From NCBI GenBank assembly GCA_020859845.1, contig JAJBVL010000002.1, positions 1 through 57,375 on the forward strand: 57,375 bases of DNA. The letters run 5' to 3'. The position numbers were made by a program, and so were the translations under genes. Of this stretch, positions 4,160 to 57,301 are shown piece by piece; position 1 is the stretch's first letter, and each line of letters begins with the position of its first letter. The notes under the pieces are model-generated. The model saw only the letters and a program-made list of their open reading frames with translations, did no database searches and was not told the origin of the DNA. The stretch comes from Bacteroidales bacterium (GTDB lineage: Bacteria > Bacteroidota > Bacteroidia > Bacteroidales > Muribaculaceae).

Positions 4160-5722
4160 ATGGAACCTACACGACGAAGATACCCCATTGGCATACAGAC
4201 CTTCTCAGAAATACGGGAAAAAGATTACCTGTATATTGACAAGACAGAAGTGATATTTAATCTTCTGACTTCCACCTCCAAGTATGTCTTCCTGAGCCGT
4301 CCTCGGAGATTCGGCAAGAGCCTGCTGTGCTCCACGCTGCGAGCCTACTTCGAGGGGCGACGCGACCTCTTCAAGGGGCTGGCCTTGGACCGTCTGGCCA
4401 CCGACTGGACGCCTCACCCTGTGGTCCATCTAAGCCTCGGAGGCATCAAGACCCAGGATCCAGCGACGCTCCGCGGCTCCATCCATAATGCCTTGGAATG
4501 GATAGAGCGGGAATTTGGGATTGACGGCAACGAGGGGATGAGTCTCGGCGACCGCCTGATGAAGATTATCAAGAATCCAGCGGAGAAGACCGGCCAACAG
4601 ACGGTGGTGATTATCGACGAGTATGACAACCCGTTGCTCAACGTGATCCACCTCGACCAAGAGAAGATAGAGGCCGTGCGAGGGGTCATGTCGGAATTGT
4701 ACGCTCCGCTCAAGGACTGCGACCCGTGGCTGCGCTTCGTCTTCATCACTGGCATCACCAAGTTCTCCCAGATGAGCATCTTCAGCTGCCTCAACAACAT
4801 CAAGAACATATCTATGATGCCCCGCTATGCCTCCATCTGCGGCATTACTCTCGACGAAATGCTCTCGGAGATGGCTCCCGACATAGAGATTTTGGCGCAG
4901 GCTCGGGGCTTGACGCGCGAAGAGGCAGTGGCGCAGCTCAGCCATCACTACGACGGCTATGCCTTCTCGGAATACTCGCCTGAGATCTTTAACCCCTTCA
5001 GCCTGATGAACTGCTTCGACGAGTGCAAGTTTGGGGCGTTTTGGTTTGCCTCGGGGACTCCGACGTCGCTGGTGCAGGTGATGCGCAAGTACGACACCAT
5101 CCCCTCGGAGCTCGACGACATCGTGGTCGACGCCACCGACTTCGACACCCCAACGGAGCTCATCTCCAACGTCATCCCGCTGATGTACCAGAGCGGCTAC
5201 CTCACCATCAAGGGCTACAAGGAGGTCAACGGCCGCTACATCCTCGGCATCCCCAACCAGGAGGTGCGCGTGGGGTTGATGAACTCCCTCCTCCCCGACT
5301 ACGTGCGCAACCCCATGCTGGCTCGCAACGTAGTTGGCGACCTCATCGAGCTCTTCAGCGAAGGCGACATAGAAGGGGCCATGGAGGCCTTGAAGAAGTT
5401 CTTCGCCACGGTGCCCTACTGCAGCAACATCGACTACGAGGGCCACTGGCAGCAGATGCTCTACGTGGTGTTCTCGCTGCTCGGAGCCTACGCCGACGTA
5501 GAAGTGCGCACACGCGAGGGACGCGTGGACATCGCCATGGCCTACCGCGGCAGGCTCTACCTGATAGAGGTGAAACTCAACGGCTCGCCCGAGGAGGCTC
5601 TGGCGCAGATAGAGCGCAAGCAGTATGCCGCCCGCTTCCAGCTCAGCAAGCTCCCCTTAGTGAAGATTGGCATCAACTTCTCCACCACCGAGCGCGGCAT
5701 CACAGGCTGGCTGATTCAATAA
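4160..5722 (+). CDS. AAA-ATPase-like protein with PD-(D/E)XK nuclease domain
   Basis: Member of the large Bacteroidales family combining an AAA-ATPase-like domain (PF09820 type) with a C-terminal PD-(D/E)XK nuclease-like domain (PF08011 type); cellular role unknown. Seen: the N-terminal YPIGIQTFSEIRE signature, a P-loop variant SRPRRFGKSLL (GKS at 52-54), Walker B VVIIDEYDNPLL, and near the end the nuclease-like core GRVDIAMAYRGRLYLIEVKL. Genomes in this order often carry many copies, and an acquired or selfish character has been suspected. The ATG at 4160 lies 39 nt after the GH20 stop with no evident promoter, so read-through is possible. Confidence 0.88.
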   Translation: MEPTRRRYPIGIQTFSEIREKDYLYIDKTEVIFNLLTSTSKYVFLSRPRRFGKSLLCSTLRAYFEGRRDLFKGLALDRLATDWTPHPVVHLSLGGIKTQDPATLRGSIHNALEWIEREFGIDGNEGMSLGDRLMKIIKNPAEKTGQQTVVIIDEYDNPLLNVIHLDQEKIEAVRGVMSELYAPLKDCDPWLRFVFITGITKFSQMSIFSCLNNIKNISMMPRYASICGITLDEMLSEMAPDIEILAQARGLTREEAVAQLSHHYDGYAFSEYSPEIFNPFSLMNCFDECKFGAFWFASGTPTSLVQVMRKYDTIPSELDDIVVDATDFDTPTELISNVIPLMYQSGYLTIKGYKEVNGRYILGIPNQEVRVGLMNSLLPDYVRNPMLARNVVGDLIELFSEGDIEGAMEALKKFFATVPYCSNIDYEGHWQQMLYVVFSLLGAYADVEVRTREGRVDIAMAYRGRLYLIEVKLNGSPEEALAQIERKQYAARFQLSKLPLVKIGINFSTTERGITGWLIQ

Positions 5723-38113: not shown

Positions 38114-40810
38114 ATGAAATCACAATATAAATACTATGCCTTTATAAGCTATTCCCATCGCGACGAGGAATGGGCTAAATGGCTTCAGCATGAATTTGAA
38201 CATTACCACCTCCCAACAAGCGTCAATCGTCACCCTAACCTTCCAGAAAATTTCCGCCCTATCTTCAGAGATATCGACGAGCTAAGCGGTGGACAATTGG
38301 GTCCTCAGATATCACAAGCGCTGGCTTCATCGGCCTATCTCGTGGTGATATGTTCTCCTTGGTCGGCCAAATCGCCATACGTCAGCGACGAGATACGCGA
38401 ATTTATAACCATTGGGCAGGCAAGAGGAATAGACAATGAGGAGCGAATCTTTCCCTATATTGTGGATGGTATACCCCACGATAGGCTTAACGAGTGTTTC
38501 CCTCAACCTTTAAAGGAGCTTAGTGAGGAACTCATAGCCGGCGATGCCACCAAGCATGGACGCGAGCACGCATTTGTCAAAGTATTGGCTGGCACTTTGC
38601 GCAATTCCAACATTGACTTTGGAATGCTGTGGAATCAGTTTGAGCGCGATAGGATAGAAGAGGAGAGAAAAAAACGCGAAGAACGCGACCGACTCTTGCT
38701 TATGCAGAGTAGACTTATCGCAGAGAAATCACAAGATTTAGTGGCTGAAGGCGATTCCTACCTTGCTCGACGTATCCTTTTGGAAGCGCTACCAAATGAC
38801 ATGTTAGACCCAGAAGCTCGTCCATATTGTCCCGAGGCTGAATGTGCATTGCGCAACGCTCTGCACTACGACTCTGCCATCCTGCCACATCAAAATATGA
38901 TCACAAGCATTAATCTTCACCCAAACCATCGGATGCTTGTTTCCTCGTCAATGGACGGAACAGTCAAGGCATGGGACTTAACCTCTGGGAAAGAACTATA
39001 TTCCTTAAAGGGGCCCTCCTTGGAATGCTACTATTATGCTGCATTCAATCATCAAGGCACTATCCTGGCCTCTTCTTCTGCCAATTTAATAAATGATTCA
39101 TACGCTCTATCTCTATGGGGTTTCCCTTCCTTAGAAAACCTATGGAGCATATCGACGCCTTCAGAGGTGACCTTCATACGGTTTTTCTATAATGACAACC
39201 TGTTGTTGACCTCCTCCAATGACCACACTTTGCGTATATGGGAAGTCGCCAGCGGCAAATTGCTAAATGAAGTTCAGTATGCCTCATCCTATTACAATAA
39301 ACCGATAATATTGGAAACATCTGGCATCCTCATATATCCTGATGGAAACGACGTGACACTACTTGATTTAAATAACCACAACAAAGAGAAGTTGACAGGC
39401 CACTCCGACAATATCACCTTTTCTTCTTACGATTACAAAAGCCAAGAGCTGCTCACCGCTTGCGAGAAGGAAATAATCAGATGGGACTTAGTCGCCCTCC
39501 AAGAGCTTGAAAAAGTTGAACTCAAAGAATGGGAGTACCCTCGCGGATCATCGCCAGAAGGTCTCATTATATATAATTCAAAAAGGCGTTGCTATCTACT
39601 CGTAAGGCATTCCTATCTTAAGAAGCAGCATCTTTTAAACTTTAAAGAGACTGGAGTAATCAATATGATTTATTCATCTGCTGCAAATCAGATGATTATC
39701 GCAGATAATAATGCCATTCACTTATGTCCATTGACACCAAAGAGCACAGTGGTGATGAGAGTGGAGGAAGTGGATAAAATGGCTTTCTTTGGGCTGAATC
39801 AAGTGGTATTTGTCACCAGAGATAAAAATATAGAGATTTATGATCTCTCGAACCGAATTCCAAGCAAGCGCATCACCTCCTTCTCAGGATTTAAGGATTT
39901 GTCCTTAGAGTGCTTTTTAGCTCATGGACAATATCTATTGATGAGCCATGAACAATCGCTCTTTTTAGTTGACCTTCTCACTGAGGATATCAAAGAACTG
40001 ACTTTTGACGGCTCATGGATTGATAAGGCGTTTATGGATGACACAAATAGATATTTAGTAGCCCTTAACCTGGATTCCACTCTCAGTGTATGGGATGTAA
40101 CGCATGAGCGGCCCGCGCTTCTTATAGCTTCACAAAGTCTCGAGAAGATGAGCCCGGATGCTCATACATACTTAAAGGCTACGGAGAATGACATGACAGC
40201 CGTTATAGATGTCCTCTCCGGAAAGGAAATTAGCATAATACCAGCAGGTATAGAAGAGCAAAATCTTGACTTTTCTGCCGACTCCAAGCTTTTGGTTTCA
40301 GCGCCAGAAGTGGTTTATCCGAAGGATGTATGGAAAATATCAAGTGGTCAACATCTTTGCGCCCTGCAACGCATAGACGATGGCATAGTGGTCCAATTGC
40401 TCTATAGTGAAGTGCAAGAGCTCATTATTGGCTACACGACCAATCACAAAATCATCTTTTGGGATGCAAGCACTGGAAGGATTAAAACCATCTTAGAGGG
40501 CCATACCGATACTATAAGCCATCTTTTGTTAAGCCACTCCGAGCAAGTGTTGGCGAGCCTTTCACGCGATGGCTGGATAAAAGTCTGGGACATCGCTACT
40601 GCCTCTTTGATAATGGCTAAAAATGCAGAGGTTGGGGAGTATATCAACAGCATGTTTAATCCAGATGACACATTGCTGATGTATAAGACTGGCGATGATG
40701 AAATGTATGTTTTGGAAATAGAACCTCTTCAAGAAATAATCAATCGCGAACGCAATCGCTTCTTCTCACGTCAATTGACCGAAGAGCAAAAACGTAAGTA
40801 TTATCTCTAA
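38114..40810 (+). CDS. TIR-domain protein with WD40 repeats
   Basis: TIR domain at about 5-150 (KYYAFISYSHRDEEWAKWL; PIFRDIDELSGG; YLVVICSPWSAKSPYVSDE) followed by a charged coiled-coil-like stretch (about 175-215, EEERKKREERDRLL), an AEGDSYLARRILLEALP helix pair, and WD40-type repeats from about 260 to 870 (SSMDGTVKAWDLTSGKEL; SSNDHTLRIWEVASGKLL; SRDGWIKVWDIATA). Glu93 in SPYVSDEI is at the place of the catalytic Glu of TIR NADases. No signal peptide, so cytoplasmic. TIR-propeller proteins are suspected sensors or effectors, including in phage defence; that role is inference here. A+T-richer than flanks; no promoter seen in the 10 nt after the asnB terminator. Confidence 0.9.
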   Translation: MKSQYKYYAFISYSHRDEEWAKWLQHEFEHYHLPTSVNRHPNLPENFRPIFRDIDELSGGQLGPQISQALASSAYLVVICSPWSAKSPYVSDEIREFITIGQARGIDNEERIFPYIVDGIPHDRLNECFPQPLKELSEELIAGDATKHGREHAFVKVLAGTLRNSNIDFGMLWNQFERDRIEEERKKREERDRLLLMQSRLIAEKSQDLVAEGDSYLARRILLEALPNDMLDPEARPYCPEAECALRNALHYDSAILPHQNMITSINLHPNHRMLVSSSMDGTVKAWDLTSGKELYSLKGPSLECYYYAAFNHQGTILASSSANLINDSYALSLWGFPSLENLWSISTPSEVTFIRFFYNDNLLLTSSNDHTLRIWEVASGKLLNEVQYASSYYNKPIILETSGILIYPDGNDVTLLDLNNHNKEKLTGHSDNITFSSYDYKSQELLTACEKEIIRWDLVALQELEKVELKEWEYPRGSSPEGLIIYNSKRRCYLLVRHSYLKKQHLLNFKETGVINMIYSSAANQMIIADNNAIHLCPLTPKSTVVMRVEEVDKMAFFGLNQVVFVTRDKNIEIYDLSNRIPSKRITSFSGFKDLSLECFLAHGQYLLMSHEQSLFLVDLLTEDIKELTFDGSWIDKAFMDDTNRYLVALNLDSTLSVWDVTHERPALLIASQSLEKMSPDAHTYLKATENDMTAVIDVLSGKEISIIPAGIEEQNLDFSADSKLLVSAPEVVYPKDVWKISSGQHLCALQRIDDGIVVQLLYSEVQELIIGYTTNHKIIFWDASTGRIKTILEGHTDTISHLLLSHSEQVLASLSRDGWIKVWDIATASLIMAKNAEVGEYINSMFNPDDTLLMYKTGDDEMYVLEIEPLQEIINRERNRFFSRQLTEEQKRKYYL

Positions 40811-40854: not shown

Positions 40855-40885
40855 TAGAAGAAACTCCTTGTACCCTTCCCCTATT

Positions 40886-41956
40886 ATGATTGATTACGAA
40901 GCCTATATCCATAGTGGCGAACCATCAAAAGCTCAGCGGGCCAGCAACTGGTTGGCCGCTATTGGCTTGCAGCAAGTGGATGGCCTGAAGACTTCGGAAT
41001 ATCTCAACGAAGTGGCTCGTCGCAACATCGAAGGAGATATCACCGTGGAGGAATCCAAAGAATTGGTATCTGCCTATTATCAAAAGAAAAGCTCTCGAGA
41101 GAGATTAGAAAAAGGGGTGGAAGAAGCCGACCGAGCAGCCGCCAATATAAATGCCTTGCTGGCTGAGCCATCTTTTACATTTTCGGTGACAGGATTAGCT
41201 GCAATTCATAGGCGGATCTTTGAGGGGGTGTTCAAGCATGCAGGACAATTCCGCGCTTTCGATATCACCAAGCAAGAATGGGTACTCCGAGGGGCTACCG
41301 TTACTTATGGGATGGCCTCCGAATTAAAAGCCACTGTCGAATACGATTTAAGCCGGGAAAAGGCCTTTAACTACAAGCATTTGTCGAAAGAAGACGTGAT
41401 AGCCCATCTGGCCCAATTCATAGCCGACCTATGGCAGATACATCCTTTTGCAGAAGGCAATACCCGCACTTCAGCGGTGTTTCTCATCAAATATCTACGC
41501 TCTATGGGTTTCTCTGTGGACAACCAGCCGTTCAATCTTCATTCTTGGTACTTTCGCAACGCCCTTGTAAGAGCCAATTACAGCCACATTGCAGATGGGG
41601 TAACTGCCGATTATACCTTCCTGGAACATTTTCTTTCCAACATCCTCATAGGCACCGATTACCCGTTGAAAAACAGACTTATGCATCTTGACTATAAGCC
41701 TGACAAAGTGGAAGAACCATTGAATATCTCCTCCAACAATCTGCCTGTAAATCTGCCTGTAAATCTGCCTGTAAAACAGCAACGCATATTAAGTATATTA
41801 CACAAGGAGCCAATGAAGACATACGACCAATTAGCACAAGCTTTAGAGTGTAGCCGAGAGACGATAAGAGTGCACATTAAAGCCTTGACGGCCAAAGGCC
41901 TGCTTACTCGTATAGGTAGCGACAAGACAGGTCATTGGAAAGTGGAGGTGGGTTAG
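40886..41956 (+). CDS. Fic-domain protein with C-terminal winged helix
   Basis: Fic proteins usually transfer AMP from ATP to target proteins. The N-terminal Fic_N region carries an EVARRNIEGDIT segment whose Glu49-Gly resembles the inhibitory motif, though Arg replaces the usual Ser/Thr. The catalytic loop is HPFAEGNTRT (186-195): His and Glu-Gly-Asn are present, Thr replaces the second Gly, and the final Arg is Ala. The linker NLPV-NLPV-NLPV is encoded by three 12-bp repeats at 41738-41773, and a C-terminal HTH (TYDQLAQALECSRETIRVHIKAL) suggests DNA binding, possibly autoregulation. Start chosen after the promoter. Ends 18 nt from the convergent propeller gene. Confidence 0.92.
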   Translation: MIDYEAYIHSGEPSKAQRASNWLAAIGLQQVDGLKTSEYLNEVARRNIEGDITVEESKELVSAYYQKKSSRERLEKGVEEADRAAANINALLAEPSFTFSVTGLAAIHRRIFEGVFKHAGQFRAFDITKQEWVLRGATVTYGMASELKATVEYDLSREKAFNYKHLSKEDVIAHLAQFIADLWQIHPFAEGNTRTSAVFLIKYLRSMGFSVDNQPFNLHSWYFRNALVRANYSHIADGVTADYTFLEHFLSNILIGTDYPLKNRLMHLDYKPDKVEEPLNISSNNLPVNLPVNLPVKQQRILSILHKEPMKTYDQLAQALECSRETIRVHIKALTAKGLLTRIGSDKTGHWKVEVG

Positions 41957-43134: not shown

Positions 43135-43219
43135 TGGTACCCAGACTCGGGCTCGAACCGAGATGGATTGCTCCACTGGTGTTTGAGACCAGCGCGTCTA
43201 CCGATTCCGCCATCTGGGC
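43135..43219 (-). tRNA. tRNA-Leu (anticodon CAA)
   Basis: Minus strand: acceptor GCCCAGA pairs with TCTGGGT (one G-U), discriminator A, then an encoded CCA (43137-43135). Anticodon stem CTGGT/ACCAG with loop CTCAAAC gives CAA. A long variable arm fits Leu. It encodes CCA, unlike the UAG Leu tRNA at 21091. A TAACTTTG -7 box lies just upstream. Confidence 0.95.
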
Positions 43220-46240: not shown

Positions 46241-46248
46241 TAAATTTG
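46241..46248 (+). promoter_or_regulatory. -7 box of the TerY-P-type cassette
   Basis: TAAATTTG, full match, 43 nt before the first gene of the four-gene cassette. No TTTG at the proper -33 spacing. It is the only promoter-like box seen for the whole set. Confidence 0.55.
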
Positions 46249-46291: not shown

Positions 46292-46654
46292 ATGTATCAC
46301 ATTTCGAAAGACGCATTTGTAATGGCGGCCTACTGTCCGAAGAACGAAGGTGCCCCCTACGGCATCACAGTGGACAAGCTCAAGCCACGCTCCTACTCCA
46401 TGATCTGGGCCTTTAAGCTCAACAAGCAGCGGCTGAAGCACGAAGGCTTTGGCGCCACCAAGGTCAATGGCACATTATACCCCGACTCGGAATATCCCGG
46501 CTGCCCCTATTGTGGCAGCCAGACAATTGCTATCTGCAATTGTGGGGCAGCAATGTGCTGGCATGGAGAGAAGGTGACAAAGTGTCCGGGCTGCGGACAG
46601 ATGTGTGAATGGCAAATGGTGGAATCTATCACCATGACTGGAGGAAAAATATAA
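46292..46654 (+). CDS. TerY-C-type zinc-binding protein
   Basis: Small cytoplasmic protein, 120 residues. The second half is dense in metal ligands: Cys71, Cys74, Cys82, Cys84, Cys89, His91, Cys98, Cys101 and Cys105, arranged as CPYC, CNC, CWH and CPGC. This resembles the C-terminal metal-binding domain of TerY proteins (TerY_C), here encoded alone. The N-terminal half (ISKDAFVMAAYCPKNEGAPYGI, split around Cys15) is a domain found with it. It is first in a row with kinase, VWA and phosphatase genes, 15 nt from the kinase. Likely adaptor or phospho-substrate (inference). Confidence 0.8.
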   Translation: MYHISKDAFVMAAYCPKNEGAPYGITVDKLKPRSYSMIWAFKLNKQRLKHEGFGATKVNGTLYPDSEYPGCPYCGSQTIAICNCGAAMCWHGEKVTKCPGCGQMCEWQMVESITMTGGKI

Positions 46655-46669
46655 AGAAGAATCACAAAT

Positions 46670-47941
46670 ATGGAACTCACCCCTGGACAAACCGTAAATC
46701 TCACCATAGGCGAGAAGGCCACAGTGGTCAAAGAGCTTGGCCGTGGCGGTCAAGGCATAGTCTATCTGGTAAAGGTAGGCAAGAAAGATATGGCCTTGAA
46801 ATGGTATATCAATCCCCCCGACGACAAGTTTTATCACAACCTGGAGAAGAACGTCAGCTCTGGTGCTCCCAACGCAGCTTTTATCTGGCCCGAATACCTG
46901 ACAGTGCGCGAAAATGGCAGCTATGGCTACATAATGCGTCTGCGCCCCAAGGACTACTACGAGTTTGGCACATTCCTGCTGGCGAGGGTCAACTTCCGGT
47001 CGTTTCACGCCATGCTAACGGCTGCCCTCAAGATATGCGCCGGCTTCAAGGTGCTCCACCTCCAGGGGTATAGCTACCAAGACCTCAACGATGGCAACTT
47101 CTTTATCAATCCTGAGAATGGCGACGTGCTCATCTGCGACAACGACAATGTGATGGCGCAGGGCGAGAAGTCGGGCATTCTGGGCAAAGCTCGCTACATG
47201 GCTCCCGAAGTGATGGCCGGCAGCGCCCCCGACAAGTATAGCGACCGTTTCTCGCTGGCCGTCATCCTCTTCATGCTCTTCTTTGCCAACCATCCCTTTG
47301 AAGGGGCCAAGGTGGTGGCGTGTCCTTGCATGACGGAGGCTTATGAGAAGAAATTCTATGGCTCGGAGGCTCTCTTCATCTTCGACCCGAAGGACAAGAG
47401 CAACCTCCCGGTGAGAGGCGTGCATCAGAACGTGATCCGCCGCTGGCCCCACTTCCCCGAGCGTCTGCGCCGGGCCTTCACCGAGGAGTTTGACAGCGAG
47501 CATCTCCAGAATCCTAAGAAGCGCATGATAGAAAACATGTGGGAACGGCTCATTATGCAGGTGCGCGACGAGCTCATCCGCTGCCCTCATTGCAAGGAAG
47601 AGACCTTTGTGGAGAGCAGCCTTGCCTCCGATAAATGTATGAATTGCGGCCACCCCATCAACCTCAGCCAGCGCATCAAGATAGGCCAACGCGAGATGAT
47701 GTTGGCGCTTGAATCGCCTCTCTATGTGGATGGCGACGAGATAGCCGACGCCAAGGTGGTGGCCAGTCCCAAAGGCGACGGCGCGCTGTGGCTCCAGAAC
47801 GTTTCGCCTAAGGCCTGGACCGTGGAGACAGCCAGCGGCAAGCTCAAGCAAGTGGAGCCTCAGGGCATGATGCCTGTGCGCACCGGCATGAAGATATCCT
47901 TCGGGCTTGACAATCTCAAGGGCGAGGTTGTGGCGAAATAA
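46670..47941 (+). CDS. Ser/Thr protein kinase with zinc ribbon and FHA-like C-terminus
   Basis: Eukaryote-like kinase: glycine loop GRGGQG (24-29), Lys44 in MALKWY, catalytic Asp138 in YQDLNDGNFFI, and the metal Asp157 in ICDNDN, where DND stands for the usual DFG. KARYMAPEVMAG is the activation-segment end. C-terminal to about 290 comes a Cys4 zinc ribbon (CPHC near 311, CMNC near 330) and a beta domain (GALWLQNVSPKAW...) that looks FHA-like or related. 423 residues, no membrane segment. It belongs to the TerY-P type set (kinase, PP2C, VWA); the four genes presumably form one operon, though a heptamer array lies between kinase and VWA gene. Confidence 0.88.
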   Translation: MELTPGQTVNLTIGEKATVVKELGRGGQGIVYLVKVGKKDMALKWYINPPDDKFYHNLEKNVSSGAPNAAFIWPEYLTVRENGSYGYIMRLRPKDYYEFGTFLLARVNFRSFHAMLTAALKICAGFKVLHLQGYSYQDLNDGNFFINPENGDVLICDNDNVMAQGEKSGILGKARYMAPEVMAGSAPDKYSDRFSLAVILFMLFFANHPFEGAKVVACPCMTEAYEKKFYGSEALFIFDPKDKSNLPVRGVHQNVIRRWPHFPERLRRAFTEEFDSEHLQNPKKRMIENMWERLIMQVRDELIRCPHCKEETFVESSLASDKCMNCGHPINLSQRIKIGQREMMLALESPLYVDGDEIADAKVVASPKGDGALWLQNVSPKAWTVETASGKLKQVEPQGMMPVRTGMKISFGLDNLKGEVVAK

Positions 47942-47998
47942 GGCAAAAGGCAAAAGGCAAAAGTAAAAAGGCAAAAGGCAAAAAGGCAAAAGTAAAAA
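47942..47998 (+). repeat. GGCAAAA heptamer array between kinase and VWA genes
   Basis: About eight 7-bp units, mostly GGCAAAA with GTAAAAA variants and one unit lengthened by an A, starting right after the kinase stop and ending about 18 nt before the VWA ATG. It is related in period and core (TTTTGCC on the other strand) to the TTTTGAC arrays at dnaB and the right edge. Confidence 0.85.
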
Positions 47999-48016
47999 GT
48001 AATAAAATATACGGAT

Positions 48017-48763
48017 ATGTCACTATTAGATGAAGTAGTAGAAGTGCCGCGTCGCACTATGACTCTGTTTTTCCTTATCGACACCTCGGGCAGCATGGCA
48101 GGCAATAAGATTGGCGCCGTGAACGATGCCGTGGTCAACGTTCTCCCCATCCTCAACGACATCTCGGCCTCCAACCCCGACGCTGAGATAAAGGTGGCAG
48201 CGCTGGAATTCTCGAGCGGTTGCAGCTGGCTCTACAGTGAGCCCAAGCTCGCCAGCGACTTTATATGGCAAGACGTAGAGGCCGAGGGCCTTACCTCGCT
48301 GGGCGAGGCCTGCGAAGAGCTTGCCTCCAAGCTGTCGAAGAGCGGATATATGAAGTCGGCCAGCGGCTCTTTTGCGCCAGCCATCATCCTTCTCTCCGAC
48401 GGTGGTCCCACCGACGACTTTTATGGAGGCTTGGGCAAGCTGAAAGCCAACAACTGGTTTAAGCATGCCATCAAGGTGGCTATCGCAATTGGCGACGATG
48501 CCGACCTTGAGGTGCTGAAGGACTTCACGGGCAACATGGAGGCAGTGTTCTCGGTCCACAACATCGACGCCCTCAAGAAGATAATCCGCGTGGTGGCCGT
48601 CACCTCTTCGCAGATAGGCAGCAAGAGCAGCTCGGCAGGCGACACCACCAAGCAGCAGCAGGTGATCGACGAGGTGAAGCAGAGCGTGGAGGATATCGAT
48701 GGTGCCGAGGCAGCCTCGGATGCCAGCGTCGACAGTTCATCCTACGACGACGATTGGGATTAA
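48017..48763 (+). CDS. TerY-like VWA domain protein
   Basis: Von Willebrand factor A domain, cytoplasmic, 248 residues. MIDAS motif IDTSGSMAGNKIG (Asp22, Ser24, Ser26), Thr at EGLTSLGEA, and Asp in LLSDGGPTDD complete the metal site. The first 175 residues are the TerY-type domain; the tail is Ser/Asp-rich (VDSSSYDDDWD) and could be a phosphorylation target. VWA proteins of this type act as metal-dependent scaffolds with kinase and PP2C partners. The zinc domain normally fused to TerY is encoded by the separate gene at 46292. Confidence 0.88.
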   Translation: MSLLDEVVEVPRRTMTLFFLIDTSGSMAGNKIGAVNDAVVNVLPILNDISASNPDAEIKVAALEFSSGCSWLYSEPKLASDFIWQDVEAEGLTSLGEACEELASKLSKSGYMKSASGSFAPAIILLSDGGPTDDFYGGLGKLKANNWFKHAIKVAIAIGDDADLEVLKDFTGNMEAVFSVHNIDALKKIIRVVAVTSSQIGSKSSSAGDTTKQQQVIDEVKQSVEDIDGAEAASDASVDSSSYDDDWD

Positions 48764-48781
48764 TCGCCAAGCTCCACCGCT

Positions 48782-49924
48782 ATGAGACACTACGCTTCAA
48801 CGTGTCAAGGCGAGAGTCATAAGGCGACTGCCAAGCCCTGTCAAGACAGCTCGATGAGTGGGCAGAAGGATGGGGTGTTGGTGGCTGTGGTATGCGATGG
48901 CCATGGTGGCGACCGCTACTTTCGTAGCGACCGCGGCAGCCGCTTGTGTTGCGAAGTGACGGCCAAGGCAGTGCGTGAATTTGCCCGAAAGGCTCCCGAC
49001 GATTTATTTGCTGGCGCTTCTCTCACTCAGCGCGGCCCCTTGTCAACGCTGGATCCTGCCGACAAGCTCCGCCGCCAAGACATCATGCTGCGCCAGCTCT
49101 TCGCCTCCATCATTGCCCGCTGGAGCGAGGCTATCTTAGCCGATGCCCAAGCGTCGCCACTCTCCGATGATGAGCGCTCGCAGCTCAAGCCAGAGTGGCA
49201 AGAGGCCTTTGAGCAAGGGCTCGATCTTGAGAAGGTGTATGGCACCACGCTTATGGCCTATGTACAGACTCGAAGCTACTGGTTGGCCTTTCATATAGGC
49301 GACGGTAAGCTGGTGGCTTACGATGGCAAAGAGTGGAGCGAACCAGTGCCGTGGGACGACCGCTGTTTCCTCAACAAGACCACATCTATCTGCGATGTAG
49401 ACGCTATCGACAAGGTGAGGTATTGTTATTGTGGCGACGGCTCGTTTCCTGTGGCAGTGTTTTTAGGCAGCGATGGCATCGACGACAGTTTTGGCCCGAT
49501 GGACAATCTCATCGACTTCTATCGCCAGGTGGCCAAGGCCATCGTAATGGAAGGGCCTATCAAGACACGCAACACTCTCGCCAACCTCCTGCCTCAGCTG
49601 AGCAAGCGTGGCAGCCAAGACGACATGTCGGTGGCCTACGTCTACGATGAAGAGCGCCTCCCTGCCCTTATCCCTGCCATCATCCGCCAGCAGATAGAGC
49701 GTCAAGAGGCCGCTATCGCCAGCCTGCGTTCCACTATCGAGGCCGAGCAAGCCAAAGCAGAGAGCCTGAGCGAGGCCACCTCTCAACGCGACACCATAGA
49801 GCGCGACTACGCCCTAAAAAAAGCGGAAACCCTCCAGCTTAAGATGGAGGCTGAGGAGCAGCGCCTCGCCAACCTCCAAGCCGAGCTGCAGTCGCTCCCC
49901 GCGCCTTCACAATCTGAACCATAA
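48782..49924 (+). CDS. PP2C-family protein phosphatase
   Basis: Metal-dependent Ser/Thr phosphatase expected to reverse the kinase. Seen: PCQDSS (Asp22), VVCDGHGGDRYF (Asp39-Gly40), FLGSDGIDDSF, and GSQDDMSVAYV with the last metal Asp. An insert at about 75-140 and a coiled-coil tail (about 300-370, rich in Glu, Gln and Ala) are extra. 380 residues. It starts 18 nt after the VWA gene. The family is well known; the pairing with the kinase is from context. Confidence 0.92.
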   Translation: MRHYASTCQGESHKATAKPCQDSSMSGQKDGVLVAVVCDGHGGDRYFRSDRGSRLCCEVTAKAVREFARKAPDDLFAGASLTQRGPLSTLDPADKLRRQDIMLRQLFASIIARWSEAILADAQASPLSDDERSQLKPEWQEAFEQGLDLEKVYGTTLMAYVQTRSYWLAFHIGDGKLVAYDGKEWSEPVPWDDRCFLNKTTSICDVDAIDKVRYCYCGDGSFPVAVFLGSDGIDDSFGPMDNLIDFYRQVAKAIVMEGPIKTRNTLANLLPQLSKRGSQDDMSVAYVYDEERLPALIPAIIRQQIERQEAAIASLRSTIEAEQAKAESLSEATSQRDTIERDYALKKAETLQLKMEAEEQRLANLQAELQSLPAPSQSEP

Positions 49925-49946
49925 ACTGATTTTACCCCCTACAAAC

Positions 49947-50078
49947 ATGCAACTCCACGAAGCGCTACGCACCACATACCGACAGAAAGGCTCAAGCTAT
50001 ATGCTTGAGTCGAAGGTGGTCAACACACTGGCCGACCTTCGAGCCTTCGAGCAACATCCTGCGATGAGAAACGTATTC
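49947..50078 (+). pseudogene. 5' fragment of a fifth cassette gene
   Basis: ATG 22 nt after the PP2C stop opens a convincing N-terminus of 44 residues (MQLHEALRTTYRQKGSSYML, then NTLADLRAFEQHPAMRNVF), after which the frame turns into the antisense of the O-antigen ligase-like gene and ends at 50150 as unlikely protein. The start resembles N-termini of Bacteroidota proteins found after such kinase/phosphatase genes, from memory only. I read it as a truncated gene, cut near 50080 by a deletion or recombination. Confidence 0.55.
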
Positions 50079-51348
50079 TCCGATTCACGACGCCTTGGAG
50101 CATGCCGTAGAAGCCAAAAGGCATGGCGAGGGTGGTCATGGAGTAGGTGAAGACGTTCTCGGCCACTTGGGTGGAGACTACGCCTACCATAGAGCTTACC
50201 ACTACTATGGACATGAGGCGCAGCGCCCAGTTGGCCGAGCGCCTGTATAGGCGCCAGCTGCTCACCACTACCATCGTGATGGCCGCGAGATAAAGCGCGA
50301 GGCCTATCAAGCCGTTGTCGCAGCGTAGCAGCACGAAGTCGTTGTGGGGCTGACGTATCCCTCCAAACACAAAGTTGGAGTAGAGATAATGCTGAATCGT
50401 GCCACTCCCGCTGCCAGCCAGAATGTGGGGAGCATAAAACTGCTGTTCAAGCGCTTGCCACACCCCAAAGCGAGCATTGGAGTTGATATCATCCTTTTTC
50501 ATCCTGCCCTCGGTAAGAGTGGTAAGAGTGACGGTGCTCGAATGGAAAGTTTTCTCCCTAAGCGATGGTATAGCGAAGATGCATGCCACACCTATTATCA
50601 TACCAGCAATCATCGGAAGAAGAGCCTTTAATCGCCACCGCAAAAAGGAAAAGAAGATCACAGCCACGGCCAGACCCAAAATGCTCGTACGGAATACCCA
50701 GATAAAGGGAGGCAACGAGAGAAAAATAGTCCAAAGCAAATCGGTGAGGCGCCGTCCATGGTAGAAATATAGCGCGGCTGAGAAGGCAGCCAACGATATG
50801 TAGTTGATGGCCGCCGCTGTCTCATACCAGAAGACACCGGGCAAATAGATGTCCCTAAATGGCAACCACGACACCACAAAACTTACAAGCGCCAATCGCC
50901 GAGCCCACATTCCCGCCACAAGAAACACATGGAAACTCCCCGCCACCGCCATTCCCGTCAAGGCTATCAGAAGAGGATAACAATACTTTACCATCGCCCT
51001 TAGCCCATATAATGGCGCCTGCGAATAGACACACCCTAACGCTACCCACACCATAAAGGCCAAATAAAGCAATAGAGCGAGAGGCCACCTGCCCACGCTG
51101 CGCGACATGATAGCCAAGATACACAGCATCTCCAACACCATCAGACGCACTGCCTGTAGGTCGATAGTGCCCTCGGCGGTGAAGGCAAAGAGACTGGTGG
51201 AGAAAAGTATCACCCAAAAGTGTTCGCTACCCGTGGAGGGCATCCACCGACGGCGAAAAGAGAGGGTGATGTTGCGGCGCTGGGAATAGAGCATCACCAG
51301 CTCCACTCCTCCAAGCATAATGAGATATAGATAATTGAGCAATACCAT
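50020..51348 (-). CDS. O-antigen ligase-like (WaaL/RfaL type) membrane protein
   Basis: Polytopic protein of about 11 helices with the large periplasmic loop of Wzy_C/O-antigen ligases: NARFGVWQAL, then GIRQPHNDFVLLRCDNGLIGLALYL, the H-N motif. Would link polysaccharide to lipid A core or polymerise it. 442 residues. The last 20 residues (RIRFSSQDVARRLEGRPVC) are encoded by the antisense of the truncated gene at 49947, so the native C-terminus was probably replaced or extended. Full promoter upstream at 51448-51478. Confidence 0.85.
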   Translation of the reverse strand: MVLLNYLYLIMLGGVELVMLYSQRRNITLSFRRRWMPSTGSEHFWVILFSTSLFAFTAEGTIDLQAVRLMVLEMLCILAIMSRSVGRWPLALLLYLAFMVWVALGCVYSQAPLYGLRAMVKYCYPLLIALTGMAVAGSFHVFLVAGMWARRLALVSFVVSWLPFRDIYLPGVFWYETAAAINYISLAAFSAALYFYHGRRLTDLLWTIFLSLPPFIWVFRTSILGLAVAVIFFSFLRWRLKALLPMIAGMIIGVACIFAIPSLREKTFHSSTVTLTTLTEGRMKKDDINSNARFGVWQALEQQFYAPHILAGSGSGTIQHYLYSNFVFGGIRQPHNDFVLLRCDNGLIGLALYLAAITMVVVSSWRLYRRSANWALRLMSIVVVSSMVGVVSTQVAENVFTYSMTTLAMPFGFYGMLQGVVNRRIRFSSQDVARRLEGRPVC

Positions 51349-51447
51349 TTTACCTGTATTTACTTTACCGATTAGAAAAACAATCCTCGTAGATTAGAGC
51401 ACAGCAGAGGGAGAGAAAGGGATAATTGTGCTTCTTTAAGGTGAGGA

Positions 51448-51478
51448 CAAATTTAATCCTTTTATCCGACACTGCAAA
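51448..51478 (-). promoter_or_regulatory. promoter of the O-antigen ligase-like gene
   Basis: Minus strand: TTTG (51478-51475), 19-nt spacer, TAAATTTG (51455-51448), about 100 nt before the ATG. Full consensus match. The rest of the 282-nt gap between the ligase and the YbhN-like gene shows nothing certain. Confidence 0.75.
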
Positions 51479-51630
51479 GGATTAACTCAAGAATATCTTT
51501 TGTGAACCAGCGGGGGGAGGCAGGGGTTATAATTTAAACAGGTAAAATCGTCACGACTCTGAAAACTTCTGCCTCACAACCAGCAAATGCTTGCCCTTCG
51601 CGCACAGTATGGGATGACCTCAAAAGATGG

Positions 51631-52638
51631 TTGTCTCCGGCCTTGCGTTTCGTAGTGCCAATAGGCTGCAGCGTGGCCTTGGTGTGGTGGCTCTTCTCGA
51701 AGGTCAACTTCCACGACATGATGGAGGTGCTGCGCCACAATGTGAAGTTTGGCTGGCTGGCAGGCTTGATGATTTTCAATGCCCTCTCCTATATGATACG
51801 CGCTCGCCGGTGGGGGCTGCAGCTTGAAGGTGTAGGCGTCAAGGTGGATTATGCCACGCTCTGCGTCTCCATCTTCGGAGCCTATGCTCTCAACCTCCTG
51901 ATGTCGGGCGTAGGCGAGGCGTGGCGGTGTCTCTTCATAGCCAAGAGGGGCAAGTGTAGTCTCTCCAAGGTGGTGGGCACCGACGTTGGCGACCGCTCTA
52001 CCGACGGTGTGTGTGTGCTGGCGCTGCTGGGCCTTACGATGCTTGTGGCGGGGAGCGCCATTCATGCTTTTGTGGTCCACTACGCCATAGGGCGCGATGT
52101 GGTGAAGTATGCCGACAATCCGTGGATGTGGGCGTGGACCTTCCTGGGCCTCAGCATCCTCTTCTGGGTAATCCACTGGCTGCGCAACTACAAGTTTATG
52201 CGCCGCGTTGACAACTGCTTCACCGACATCTGGGAAGGCTTCAAGGTATTGTTCACGATGCCCCACAAGTGGCTCTACTTCTGGCTGACGATAGGCATCT
52301 GGGTATGCTATTTCCTGCAGACCTACGTATGCTTCCCCGGATTCCCCTTCACCGATGCTCTCCTTACGCCCGAATATAGCTATGGGTTGGTGCCAGGCCT
52401 CGTGGTGTGTCTTTTCGCTTCAATGTCGATGGCAATCCCCAGCAGTGGAGGCCTTGGCCCGTGGAACCTGGCCATCATGTTTGCGCTCTCGCTCTACGGC
52501 GTGGGGCAGACCGAGGGCGCAGCCTTCGCCATGCTACTCTGGGCTGCTGAGGCTACGATGCAAGTGATGCTGGGCGTGGGGAGCCTTATCTACGTCGTGG
52601 TGACGAATAAGAAGGCATGTCGCGCCGCTTCAAAATAA
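51631..52638 (+). CDS. YbhN/LPG-synthase-like membrane protein (UPF0104)
   Basis: Lysylphosphatidylglycerol-synthase transmembrane-domain protein, 335 residues, about 8 helices, without the C-terminal aminoacyl-transferase domain, so flippase-like or unknown. Seen: CSVALVWWLFSKVNF, MIRARRWGLQLEG, ISIFGAYALNLL-type segment (VSIFGAYALNLLMSGVGEAW), GTDVGDRSTDGVCV and a late AIPSSGGLGPWNLAIMFAL. No ATG gives the first helix: the frame is open from 51538 and the TTG at 51631 is the best start seen, so the 5' end is uncertain. Its 3' end overlaps the RND gene by 53 nt. Confidence 0.85.
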   Translation: MSPALRFVVPIGCSVALVWWLFSKVNFHDMMEVLRHNVKFGWLAGLMIFNALSYMIRARRWGLQLEGVGVKVDYATLCVSIFGAYALNLLMSGVGEAWRCLFIAKRGKCSLSKVVGTDVGDRSTDGVCVLALLGLTMLVAGSAIHAFVVHYAIGRDVVKYADNPWMWAWTFLGLSILFWVIHWLRNYKFMRRVDNCFTDIWEGFKVLFTMPHKWLYFWLTIGIWVCYFLQTYVCFPGFPFTDALLTPEYSYGLVPGLVVCLFASMSMAIPSSGGLGPWNLAIMFALSLYGVGQTEGAAFAMLLWAAEATMQVMLGVGSLIYVVVTNKKACRAASK

Positions 52639-55795: not shown

Positions 55796-57301
55796 TTAGC
55801 GAGTGATGCGATGGAGATTGTCAAACTTGTCGGGTAGCGGCATTCCCAACTCAAAGTCGTAGAGCGTCAGCTTGCGCAGCTTGTAGTAGCTCAGCCAGTA
55901 GTTTTGGAGCGCGGAGATATAGTTGCTATTTGCATCCTGCTGGCGATTGTGGGCCAATGTCAAGGTGTTGAGGTCGGCCTTGCCAATGATGAAGCGTTGC
56001 TTGGTCTGAGCATAAGCCATATCAGCGAGGTCGAGAGCTTCGAGGGCGCTCTCAATCAGACGCTGCTGTATATTGAAGTCGCTGACGGTCATTATCACGT
56101 CTTCTTCGAGGCTAATCTCCTCCTGGCGAGCAGCAATTTCGGTGACATTAAGCTCGTTTTTAGCCATATTCACCTTGCCTTTTCTCACGCCCCAGTCGAT
56201 GAGGGGGATAGTGAGAGTGATTGACACAAGGTCTTGTCGCAAAGGATGTCGATAAACGTCGGCAAAGGTCTCAGACACCTGATTGAAGCCCACGCTGGCA
56301 TCAAGACTGGCGCTAAAGCGCTGCTCTATAGTGGTCTTGTTGAGACTTTGCTGTGCTTCCAGCACGCTTTGTCGCTGTTGGATCAGCGTAGGATTGTTGG
56401 CTTTGGCTTGCTCCAAGGCAAGGCCCGTGGATATATTCATTCCCGTGGGGCAGGAGGGCAAAATCACCTCGATATCGGTGTTTTGCTCCATCCCCAGGAA
56501 TGACGCGAGCGAGGTCATGGCGCGTTTTAGGGCTATGCGGGTGTTCTCGAGTGAGTTTTCAGCATTGATTTTGTCGAGCTTGAGCGTGAGGAGTTCGCTT
56601 TGCGAGATGGCTGCAATCTTGAATCGGCGCTCACCGATGATATACATGGTGTCGCACGACAATACATTCTCCTGAGCCAGACGATACTCGGCCTGTGCCA
56701 AAGCGAGTGCAAAGAAGTAGGTCACGGCGTTTTCCGACACTTCCTCCATATTGTAAAGAAATTGCTTCTTCACCTTCTCATACTTCAGAGGTTCGATTTT
56801 TCTGGCCCACTTAAACTCGTTGTAGCCCAGCAGCGATTGAGAGTAGCCGATACGCACTGGCACCGAGGAATATTGCGTGGAGTTGATGTCGCCAAAGTTG
56901 CGCAGATAGTCGAGGCTTGTCTTAATATAGAAGGTACCACCCAGAGGGTCAAAGTTTTGAGTGATATTAAGCCCCGCATATGCCTCATACATCTGCTGGG
57001 CACGATACACATCGATATTCTCCTGCGAATCGTAGCGCTGCGTAAGGTAGTGGTAGTAAGACACCGGGGTAAGGCTCAGCGACAAGCTTGGCAGACGCTC
57101 TGCGCGATACGACCGATACTCCCAGTAGCCACTAAGGTATAGGTTTTGGTTGCGAAAGGCTGTCAACGAGCTGTCGTTGGCTATTTCGATAGTGCGCTGG
57201 AGATCGAGCACCACTGGCTGCGCGGCCCACGACGTGAAGCCACACCCACTCAGCAGCAGGCCCAACAATAAGAAAAGATTATGTATATGATGTCGTCTCA
57301 T
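55796..57301 (-). CDS. TolC-family outer-membrane efflux protein
   Basis: Outer-membrane channel of tripartite pumps. Signal peptide MRRHHIHNLFLLLGLLLSG with CGFT, so a lipoprotein as is common for these proteins. Helical repeats with EIANDSSLTAFRNQNLYLS and a second half with ALEQAKANNPTLIQQRQSVLEAQ, typical OEP domains. 501 residues. Upstream of, and probably co-transcribed with, the RND permease. The adaptor gene may lie to the right of the window. A heptamer array precedes the ATG. Confidence 0.93.
   Translation of the reverse strand: MRRHHIHNLFLLLGLLLSGCGFTSWAAQPVVLDLQRTIEIANDSSLTAFRNQNLYLSGYWEYRSYRAERLPSLSLSLTPVSYYHYLTQRYDSQENIDVYRAQQMYEAYAGLNITQNFDPLGGTFYIKTSLDYLRNFGDINSTQYSSVPVRIGYSQSLLGYNEFKWARKIEPLKYEKVKKQFLYNMEEVSENAVTYFFALALAQAEYRLAQENVLSCDTMYIIGERRFKIAAISQSELLTLKLDKINAENSLENTRIALKRAMTSLASFLGMEQNTDIEVILPSCPTGMNISTGLALEQAKANNPTLIQQRQSVLEAQQSLNKTTIEQRFSASLDASVGFNQVSETFADVYRHPLRQDLVSITLTIPLIDWGVRKGKVNMAKNELNVTEIAARQEEISLEEDVIMTVSDFNIQQRLIESALEALDLADMAYAQTKQRFIIGKADLNTLTLAHNRQQDANSNYISALQNYWLSYYKLRKLTLYDFELGMPLPDKFDNLHRITR

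Follow-up and report, generated by a model that had tools for sequence, protein, structure and literature searches.

Four adjacent genes at positions 46292 to 49924 of a 57,375-nt stretch of a Bacteroidales genome (Muribaculaceae; assembly GCA_020859845.1, contig JAJBVL010000002.1; the whole stretch is called the window here) encode a metal-binding TerY_C protein, a Ser/Thr protein kinase, a TerY-type VWA protein and a PP2C-type protein phosphatase. With moderate confidence, these genes are regarded here as the regulatory core of a TerY-P-type conflict or stress-response system, whose adaptor-tagged partners are partly encoded elsewhere in the genome and would act in trans. The core itself belongs to a known kind, TerY-P, and it is the adaptor-coupled, partly trans arrangement that is new. 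The adaptor, named TAD here, is a domain of about 100 aa without a Pfam family, which is N-terminal in the product of a gene near the phosphatase gene.

The four genes follow each other on the forward strand: the TerY_C gene (46292..46654; 120 aa; Pfam TerY_C 41 bits, cut-off 28.4), the kinase gene (46670..47941; 423 aa; Pkinase 56.5 bits, cut-off 31.7), the VWA gene (48017..48763; 248 aa; VWA 33.8 bits, cut-off 23.8) and the phosphatase gene (48782..49924; 380 aa; PP2C_2 100.9 bits, cut-off 24). They are separated by gaps of 15, 75 and 18 nt, and 22 nt more lead to a truncated fifth open reading frame (ORF). An earlier, sequence-only reading of the window had described a zinc protein, a kinase, a VWA protein and a phosphatase with exactly this spacing on one strand, and had recognized in them the TerY-P triad next to a separate TerY_C; both points are confirmed, with every domain above its Pfam cut-off and the catalytic and metal-binding residues retained. 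In the kinase, K44, D138, N143, D157, D159 and the APE at residues 178-180 are invariant among 20 aligned kinases. Residues D22, S24, S26, T93 and D128 of the VWA protein are kept in at least 95% of 46 sequences, D39-G40-H41-G42, D231, D234, D235, D280 and D281 of the phosphatase in at least 95% of 42, and C71, C74, C82, C84, C89, C98 and C101 of the TerY_C protein in at least 95% of 29, the window being included in each of these three sets. We take the kinase residues to be the familiar catalytic motifs, the VWA residues to be the MIDAS, which is intact, and the phosphatase aspartates to be the metal-binding ones. Furthermore, C305, C308 and C323 of the kinase are invariant in the same 20 sequences and a fourth cysteine is nearly so; the kinase probably carries a C-terminal zinc ribbon at about residues 305-327, followed by a short tail, and the Pfam zinc-ribbon matches on it all fall below cut-off.

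This composition resembles the TerY-P triad of Anantharaman, Iyer and Aravind 2012, which, as far as the available part of PMC11090510 describes it, unites a TerY-like VWA protein, a PP2C phosphatase and a Ser/Thr kinase with a C-terminal zinc ribbon in one operon. The system of the window differs in adding a separate TerY_C gene and an often-linked TAD gene, and in having partners that are encoded elsewhere. An NCBIfam scan of the cassette proteins gave nothing above a cut-off, and PDB searches with the VWA and TerY_C proteins returned one weak match each (8s05 and the zinc-finger protein 2i13, respectively). The genome from which the window comes (2.9 Mb in 112 contigs) holds a single TerY_C match and a single VWA relative, both inside the window, and in a kinase tree of 52 rows the window kinase lies on a long branch and in no supported subgroup.

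When the VWA protein was used to scan a collection of species genomes, 46 related loci were obtained, which are mostly from Bacteroidota, with two from Bacillota and one titled as a proteobacterium, and which are not dereplicated (L066 and L067, for example, come from one assembly). Complete loci are also found in rumen Bacteroidales, such as L050 (Segatella baroniae) and L147 (Prevotella sp. E2-28). The kinase is present in all 46 loci, the phosphatase in 45 (L073 stops at a contig edge) and a TerY_C match in 33. Chance adjacency of four unrelated genes is ruled out by this co-conservation of kinase and phosphatase. The expectations of the sequence-only reading that domain searches would recover the TerY and TerY_C similarities and that the four genes would stay together in relatives are therefore borne out by the hidden Markov model (HMM) search of the four products and by the survey of related loci. 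The same reading had also seen a TerY protein split in two as a peculiarity of the window. In this clade, however, the TerY_C gene is separate wherever it was found, which rules out a window-specific event and which the earlier reading had missed. Its position varies: it can precede the kinase, follow the kinase and precede the VWA gene (L049, L051, L052) or lie downstream (L036, L040, L041, L065). The fused form was seen in ter-type loci, L019 and L022 among them. Ter-type VWA proteins from other genomes of the window's family share 24-33% identity with the window VWA and end in ..LPPPPPEVN, or have TerY_C fused to them. Other settings were also seen: one relative is on a plasmid typed non-mobilizable, five kinase relatives (two of them distant, at 37% and 32% identity) come from a viral-contig collection that may hold non-viral contigs, and one record of a phage collection has a weak VWA match.

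The VWA protein of the window ends in the tail SYDDDWD (48740..48760, forward strand), a candidate docking motif. A tryptophan occupies position -2 in all 50 complete relatives, which represent 33 distinct tails and in which it follows a variable linker; some of these rows repeat a genome that is present in two collections, and the contig-cut L073 was dropped. Outside this set, the tryptophan is the last residue in L172; it is missing from L174, from L025 and from the second of the tandem VWAs of L003 and L017. The tail may be the most economical docking site for partners.

A frequent companion of the core is TAD. A TAD HMM matched 52 ORFs of the fetched loci, and the domain starts within 1.5 kb after the phosphatase match in 30 of the 40 loci with that much sequence; it is found anywhere in 29 of the 35 loci with at least 5 kb downstream. 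When 48 TAD members were compared with Pfam, no family matched more than two of them at E 0.1, and the best single E was 0.003. The domain heads proteins with weak TPR matches and one membrane segment (seen by eye), which precede HxsA, HxsD, HxsB and HxsC, and it is also N-terminal on an FtsK protein (L056), a DUF4011-AAA helicase (L035) and FGE-sulfatase proteins (L147, L157). At the C-terminus it was found in L059 and L062, on a protein of unknown kind, and on the VWA protein of L069, the single case of fusion to a core component; no such fusion occurs in the genome of the window. As a control for specificity, 85 hand-chosen loci without the kinase in view were searched, from which the TAD-bearing L142 and L144 had been excluded: the sole match below E 0.01 was L093, the window's own stretch, and two more lay at 0.034. 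None of 703 shuffled proteins matched the profile at E <= 1. A PDB profile search with TAD gave 11 rows at E <= 1, and its sole strong one, the engineered protein 4rzp, was taken as spurious because no stretch of it passes on its own. In another phylum, a Clostridia bin carries four consecutive TAD genes downstream of a kinase-VWA-phosphatase set (L075, 10744-14741), one of them with a weak match (E 0.0009). In the titles and abstract openings surveyed, neither a TAD-like domain nor a link between TerY-P and Hxs was found, and an earlier description in the 2012 Ter-systems paper is possible.

In the window, the gene after the phosphatase is broken. The ORF at 49947..50108 (forward strand), overlooked by the sequence-only reading, holds the first 50 or so codons of a TAD gene and matches positions 1-54 of the 101 of the TAD profile (35.7 bits; E 1e-7 in the whole-genome TAD search). 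TAD breaks off at about 50084-50108, the point at which an O-antigen-ligase-like ORF (50020..51348, reverse strand; Wzy_C 47.6 bits) enters from the other strand and overlaps the fragment with its 3' end; no continuation of TAD was found in the six frames of 49901-52000. The ligase-like gene was seen in one of 34 genomes of the genus and the junction at about 50100 in one of 61 genomes, in both cases the window's own. Since neither is seen elsewhere, the break may reflect either a recent rearrangement or an assembly error. At the glgB flank, the right-hand genes of the window were found in none of the eight genus stretches fetched, one of which is short (L095), so that no clean empty site emerged from this comparison. 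A tRNA-Leu gene is located at 43135-43219, about 3 kb before the cassette, and a match of 75-109 bases to its region occurs near glgB in 8 of the 14 genus loci compared.

Two further TAD genes are intact in the same genome and, as far as the contigs show, unlinked to the window. One encodes a protein of 252 aa (contig C4), which has full-length relatives (22-33% identity) inside the TerY-P loci L036, L040, L041 and L063. The other (contig C53) encodes a TAD-FGE-sulfatase protein of 381 aa and is followed after 48 nt by a gene whose 871-aa product is a UvrD helicase that also carries an RNase_T exonuclease domain. The TAD-FGE protein has full-length relatives (42-46% identity) inside the TerY-P loci L048, L147 (a Prevotella sp. 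E2-28 plasmid) and L172, and in all three the UvrD helicase gene adjoins, although the end of the stretch cuts it in L048 and L172. The sequence-only reading had proposed a self-standing kinase-phosphatase switch; this is not supported, because a TAD gene usually follows the phosphatase, is broken here and has two more counterparts elsewhere in the genome. A few kb before the TAD-FGE/UvrD pair, the same contig carries a GmrSD_N (DUF262) gene that overlaps an AAA_15 ATPase gene (L157, 4404-6547).

The association of core and adaptor can also be followed across the order. In a TAD profile search of 393 genomes of the order at a cut-off of E 1e-6, TAD was found in six, the genome of the window contributing three matches (the fragment, the 252-aa and the 381-aa protein). 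The kinase was likewise found in six, and four genomes have both (hypergeometric p 2e-7, phylogeny ignored); when the window's genome is left out, three are shared between five and five (p 1e-5, phylogeny again ignored). In the co-occurring genomes outside the window's own, kinase and TAD are mostly linked. Several of the order genomes are also among the named loci; L158 and L035, for instance, have identical kinases. Within the genus, kinase and TAD each occur in one of 34 genomes, which is that of the window, with TAD there in three places, and neither was found in the other 33. As a separate observation, the TAD genes of two genomes without the kinase (G494, L160 9822-11557; G554, L159 8258-9813) lie beside a conserved ORF of 73 aa.

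A second recurrent companion in the relatives is the Hxs radical-SAM system. HxsB and HxsC were found in 22 of the 35 TerY-P loci with at least 5 kb downstream, and in 20 of these 22 a TAD gene, HxsA, HxsD, HxsB and HxsC follow the phosphatase in this order; in L034 and L040 the Hxs genes are upstream of the kinase. In L063, HxsB, HxsC and HxsD score above the curated cut-offs of the families TIGR03976-TIGR03979, and HxsA, which has a peptidoglycan-binding domain, scores below its own. The 12 Hxs stretches of order genomes without TerY-P, some of them short, gave no TAD match at E 0.001. L141 is one of them: its protein ahead of HxsA corresponds to the TAD-TPR proteins from their residue 126 or so onwards and is without TAD, as would be predicted for a plug-in adaptor. 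Hxs as an obligate client of the core was rejected by the reverse test: at the curated cut-off, TerY-P is present in only 2 of the 14 order genomes with HxsB, namely that of L144 and G539, which has Hxs with TAD (L142) and a kinase cassette (L169) on separate contigs. A gene for a DNA/RNA non-specific endonuclease recurs before the kinase or HxsA, in L036 (by Pfam) and in L158 and L143 (by eye).

In a handful of relatives, the cassette lies among defence genes; the scan for these covered some of the 46 loci. PglX, PglZ and BrxL stand directly before the TerY_C-like gene of L172, itself identified by a 32% BLAST match, and L173 is identical to L172 over the 9,189 bases compared. L056 and L171, which are closely related, have type IIG restriction-methyltransferase genes upstream. 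ZorA2-type genes occur in L147 and L056, and weaker ZorA/ZorB-like genes in L168. The link to stress or conflict sensing, which the sequence-only reading had suggested, has gained support from these BREX, type IIG restriction and ZorA2 neighbours. L168 (7646-14636, G381) is a divergent TerY-P locus that combines its weakly ZorA/ZorB-like genes with a second VWA and has no TAD. On plasmid pE2-28 (L147 and L170), the TerY-P/TAD operon is flanked by several ADP-ribosylglycohydrolase genes and ends in ZorA2-type and OmpA genes. In the window, a TIR domain fused to WD40 repeats (38114-40810) precedes a Fic/DOC protein with a winged helix (40868-41956); lying 4-8 kb upstream of the cassette, these are possible signalling or defence genes. 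An AAA-ATPase_like protein with a PDDEXK_9 nuclease domain is encoded at 4160-5722.

Judging from its components, the cassette is probably a phosphorylation switch. The VWA protein would serve as a metal-dependent scaffold, and the zinc-ribbon kinase together with the TerY_C protein would sense or hold a cue such as oxidative damage, nucleic acid or a metal. Phosphorylation of the Ser-rich VWA linker (SSQIGSKS) or of TAD-tagged partners by the kinase could then assemble or release the outputs, and the phosphatase would reset the switch. TAD would act as an effector-associated, or coupling, domain by which the core is connected to different outputs: a putative membrane protein together with HxsA and radical-SAM maturases, an FtsK-like ATPase, a DUF4011 helicase, or an FGE-sulfatase with a UvrD helicase/exonuclease. 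In the genome of the window, the adjacent TAD gene would have been cut by a rearrangement, and the 252-aa TAD protein and the TAD-FGE-sulfatase beside the UvrD helicase/exonuclease would act in trans. We know of no established substrates of TerY-P switches. A more specific proposal is put forward only tentatively, since we would sooner expect some part of it to fail than the whole to hold: that TAD is a hitherto undescribed coupling domain specific to zinc-ribbon TerY-P switches, that one core commands genome-wide interchangeable TAD-tagged outputs recruited through the ..DDW(D/G) tail of the VWA protein or its MIDAS, that these outputs are the UvrD helicase/exonuclease with FGE-sulfatase, FtsK, the DUF4011 helicase and membrane HxsA with radical-SAM enzymes, alongside BREX and ZorA genes, and that the genome of the window is a natural case of a scattered core and partners.

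The nearest precedent for such coupling is found in the effector-associated domains (EADs) of MoxR-vWA/GAP1 conflict systems, small domains that, according to the available part of PMC7159879, occur on varied effectors both beside the core and elsewhere. The same part of that source names FGS, taken here as the FGE-sulfatase domain, as an effector type in EAD systems and points out that actinobacterial GAP1-N2 systems include gene sets for kinase-zinc ribbon, PP2C and vWA proteins. The likeness is that TAD is borne by several putative effectors, whose genes lie within the operon and at other sites of the genome; the core here, however, is TerY-P and not MoxR-vWA, iSTAND or GAP1, and fusion to the core was seen once (L069). 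No EAD family is among the Pfam matches of the 48 TAD members. A TerY-P module is also attached to CoCoNuTs (PMC11090510, in the part available), of which types II and III-A place TerY-P on a restriction-type system, as in some relatives of the window; these few relatives have BREX, type IIG restriction and ZorA genes as neighbours (CoCoNuT core genes were not looked for). Neither Hxs nor radical SAM occurs in PMC11090510. The Hxs system, for its part, is linked to TerY-P in relatives and not in the window.

Several observations weigh against this interpretation. TAD was not found in 6 of the 35 loci with at least 5 kb downstream (L033, L034, L037, L042, L070, L077), and in most loci it is unfused to core components. 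Two order genomes have the kinase without TAD (G381, G517) and two have TAD without the kinase (G494, G554); the p-values of the co-occurrence take no account of phylogeny, a completeness of at least 90% is reached by only 14 of the 34 genus genomes, and the counts of loci include duplicates, with L172 and L173 identical over their shared sequence in addition to the pair from one assembly. The Hxs linkage is one-sided, as the reverse test showed, and the contrast offered by L141 is a single case. Finally, the junction at about 50100 could be an assembly error. The contig would then join two loci, and the fifth gene would really be intact, with the reading of the core unchanged. Such a chimera would account for the head-to-head fusion of two truncated ORFs that is found in no other genome searched; the GC content of the cassette is close to that of the neighbouring glgB (0.556 and 0.559), which bears on the left side only and is not decisive, and on balance we consider a chimera unlikely.

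The other explanations concern the role of the core itself. TerY_C and VWA owe their names to ter loci, and L032 has two terD-type genes upstream, so that the cassette might be a classical tellurite or metal-stress ter module that has lost the other ter genes and controls metal homeostasis without effectors. Yet TerD is near only 1 of the 46 relatives, on which ground this candidate was rejected; moreover, the window VWA falls into a different subfamily from the ter-type VWAs, with a ..DDWD tail as opposed to ..LPPPPPEVN and the low identity given above, and the frequent neighbours are TAD and Hxs genes, all of which makes a ter module distinctly unlikely. The sequence-only reading had stated that the window has no terC, terD or terB gene: for TerD this holds, as window tblastn searches with one set of TerD, Hxs, FtsK and helicase queries gave nothing below E 0.5, and terB and terC were not among the queries. 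It is also improbable that the cassette is a dedicated regulator of the Hxs radical-SAM system, left as a remnant after the loss of its client. The frequency of HxsB and HxsC among the relatives would fit this idea, as would the absence of HxsB above the curated cut-off from the window's genome, but 13 of the 35 relatives have no HxsB/C in the stretch examined, all four core ORFs are intact, and the genome keeps two TAD genes whose relatives are not of the Hxs-linked kind. Another candidate is the stand-alone anti-phage TerY-P of Gao et al. 2020, which would need no additional effector and which shares the kinase, the phosphatase and the VWA protein with the window; TerY-P alone was reported to be active against T7-like phages (PMC7699616), and the six relatives without a detected TAD would agree with it. 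The Gao-type kinase, however, carries an OB-fold, contrasted with the zinc ribbon of window-type kinases (PMC11090510), and the available parts of these two sources do not mention adaptor-tagged partners. In addition, PADLOC profiles did not match the VWA and TerY_C proteins at E <= 1, matched the kinase only as other kinases (mad6 5.9e-13, PD-T4-6 1e-12) and gave one weak row for the phosphatase, and TAD genes are usually linked, hence this explanation appears quite unlikely as well.

As for other features of the cassette, the gap between the kinase and VWA genes is filled by an AAGGCAA tandem repeat (47940..47999, forward strand), and a similar A/G-rich string is apparently present, by eye, at about 34.6-35.1 kb of the window and in L157. 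Forty-three nt before the first gene, the sequence TAAATTTG (46241..46248, forward strand) fits TAnnTTTG, which we take to be the consensus of the Bacteroidota -7 box. This single site is weak evidence of a promoter because the pattern is matched 36 times in the window, where 19.8 matches (sd 4.5) would be expected; the next forward-strand match is at 55899. A scan for sigma-70-type promoters and terminators found no excess over shuffles.

To conclude, a small domain that marks likely partners of a TerY-P switch, including distant ones, would provide a short, testable list of phosphorylation targets. The poorly understood Hxs radical-SAM system gains a candidate regulator in Bacteroidales, and both TerY-P and Hxs become tied to neighbourhoods of helicase, restriction, BREX and ZorA genes. 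This suggests that TerY-P switches may control anti-virus and stress machinery.

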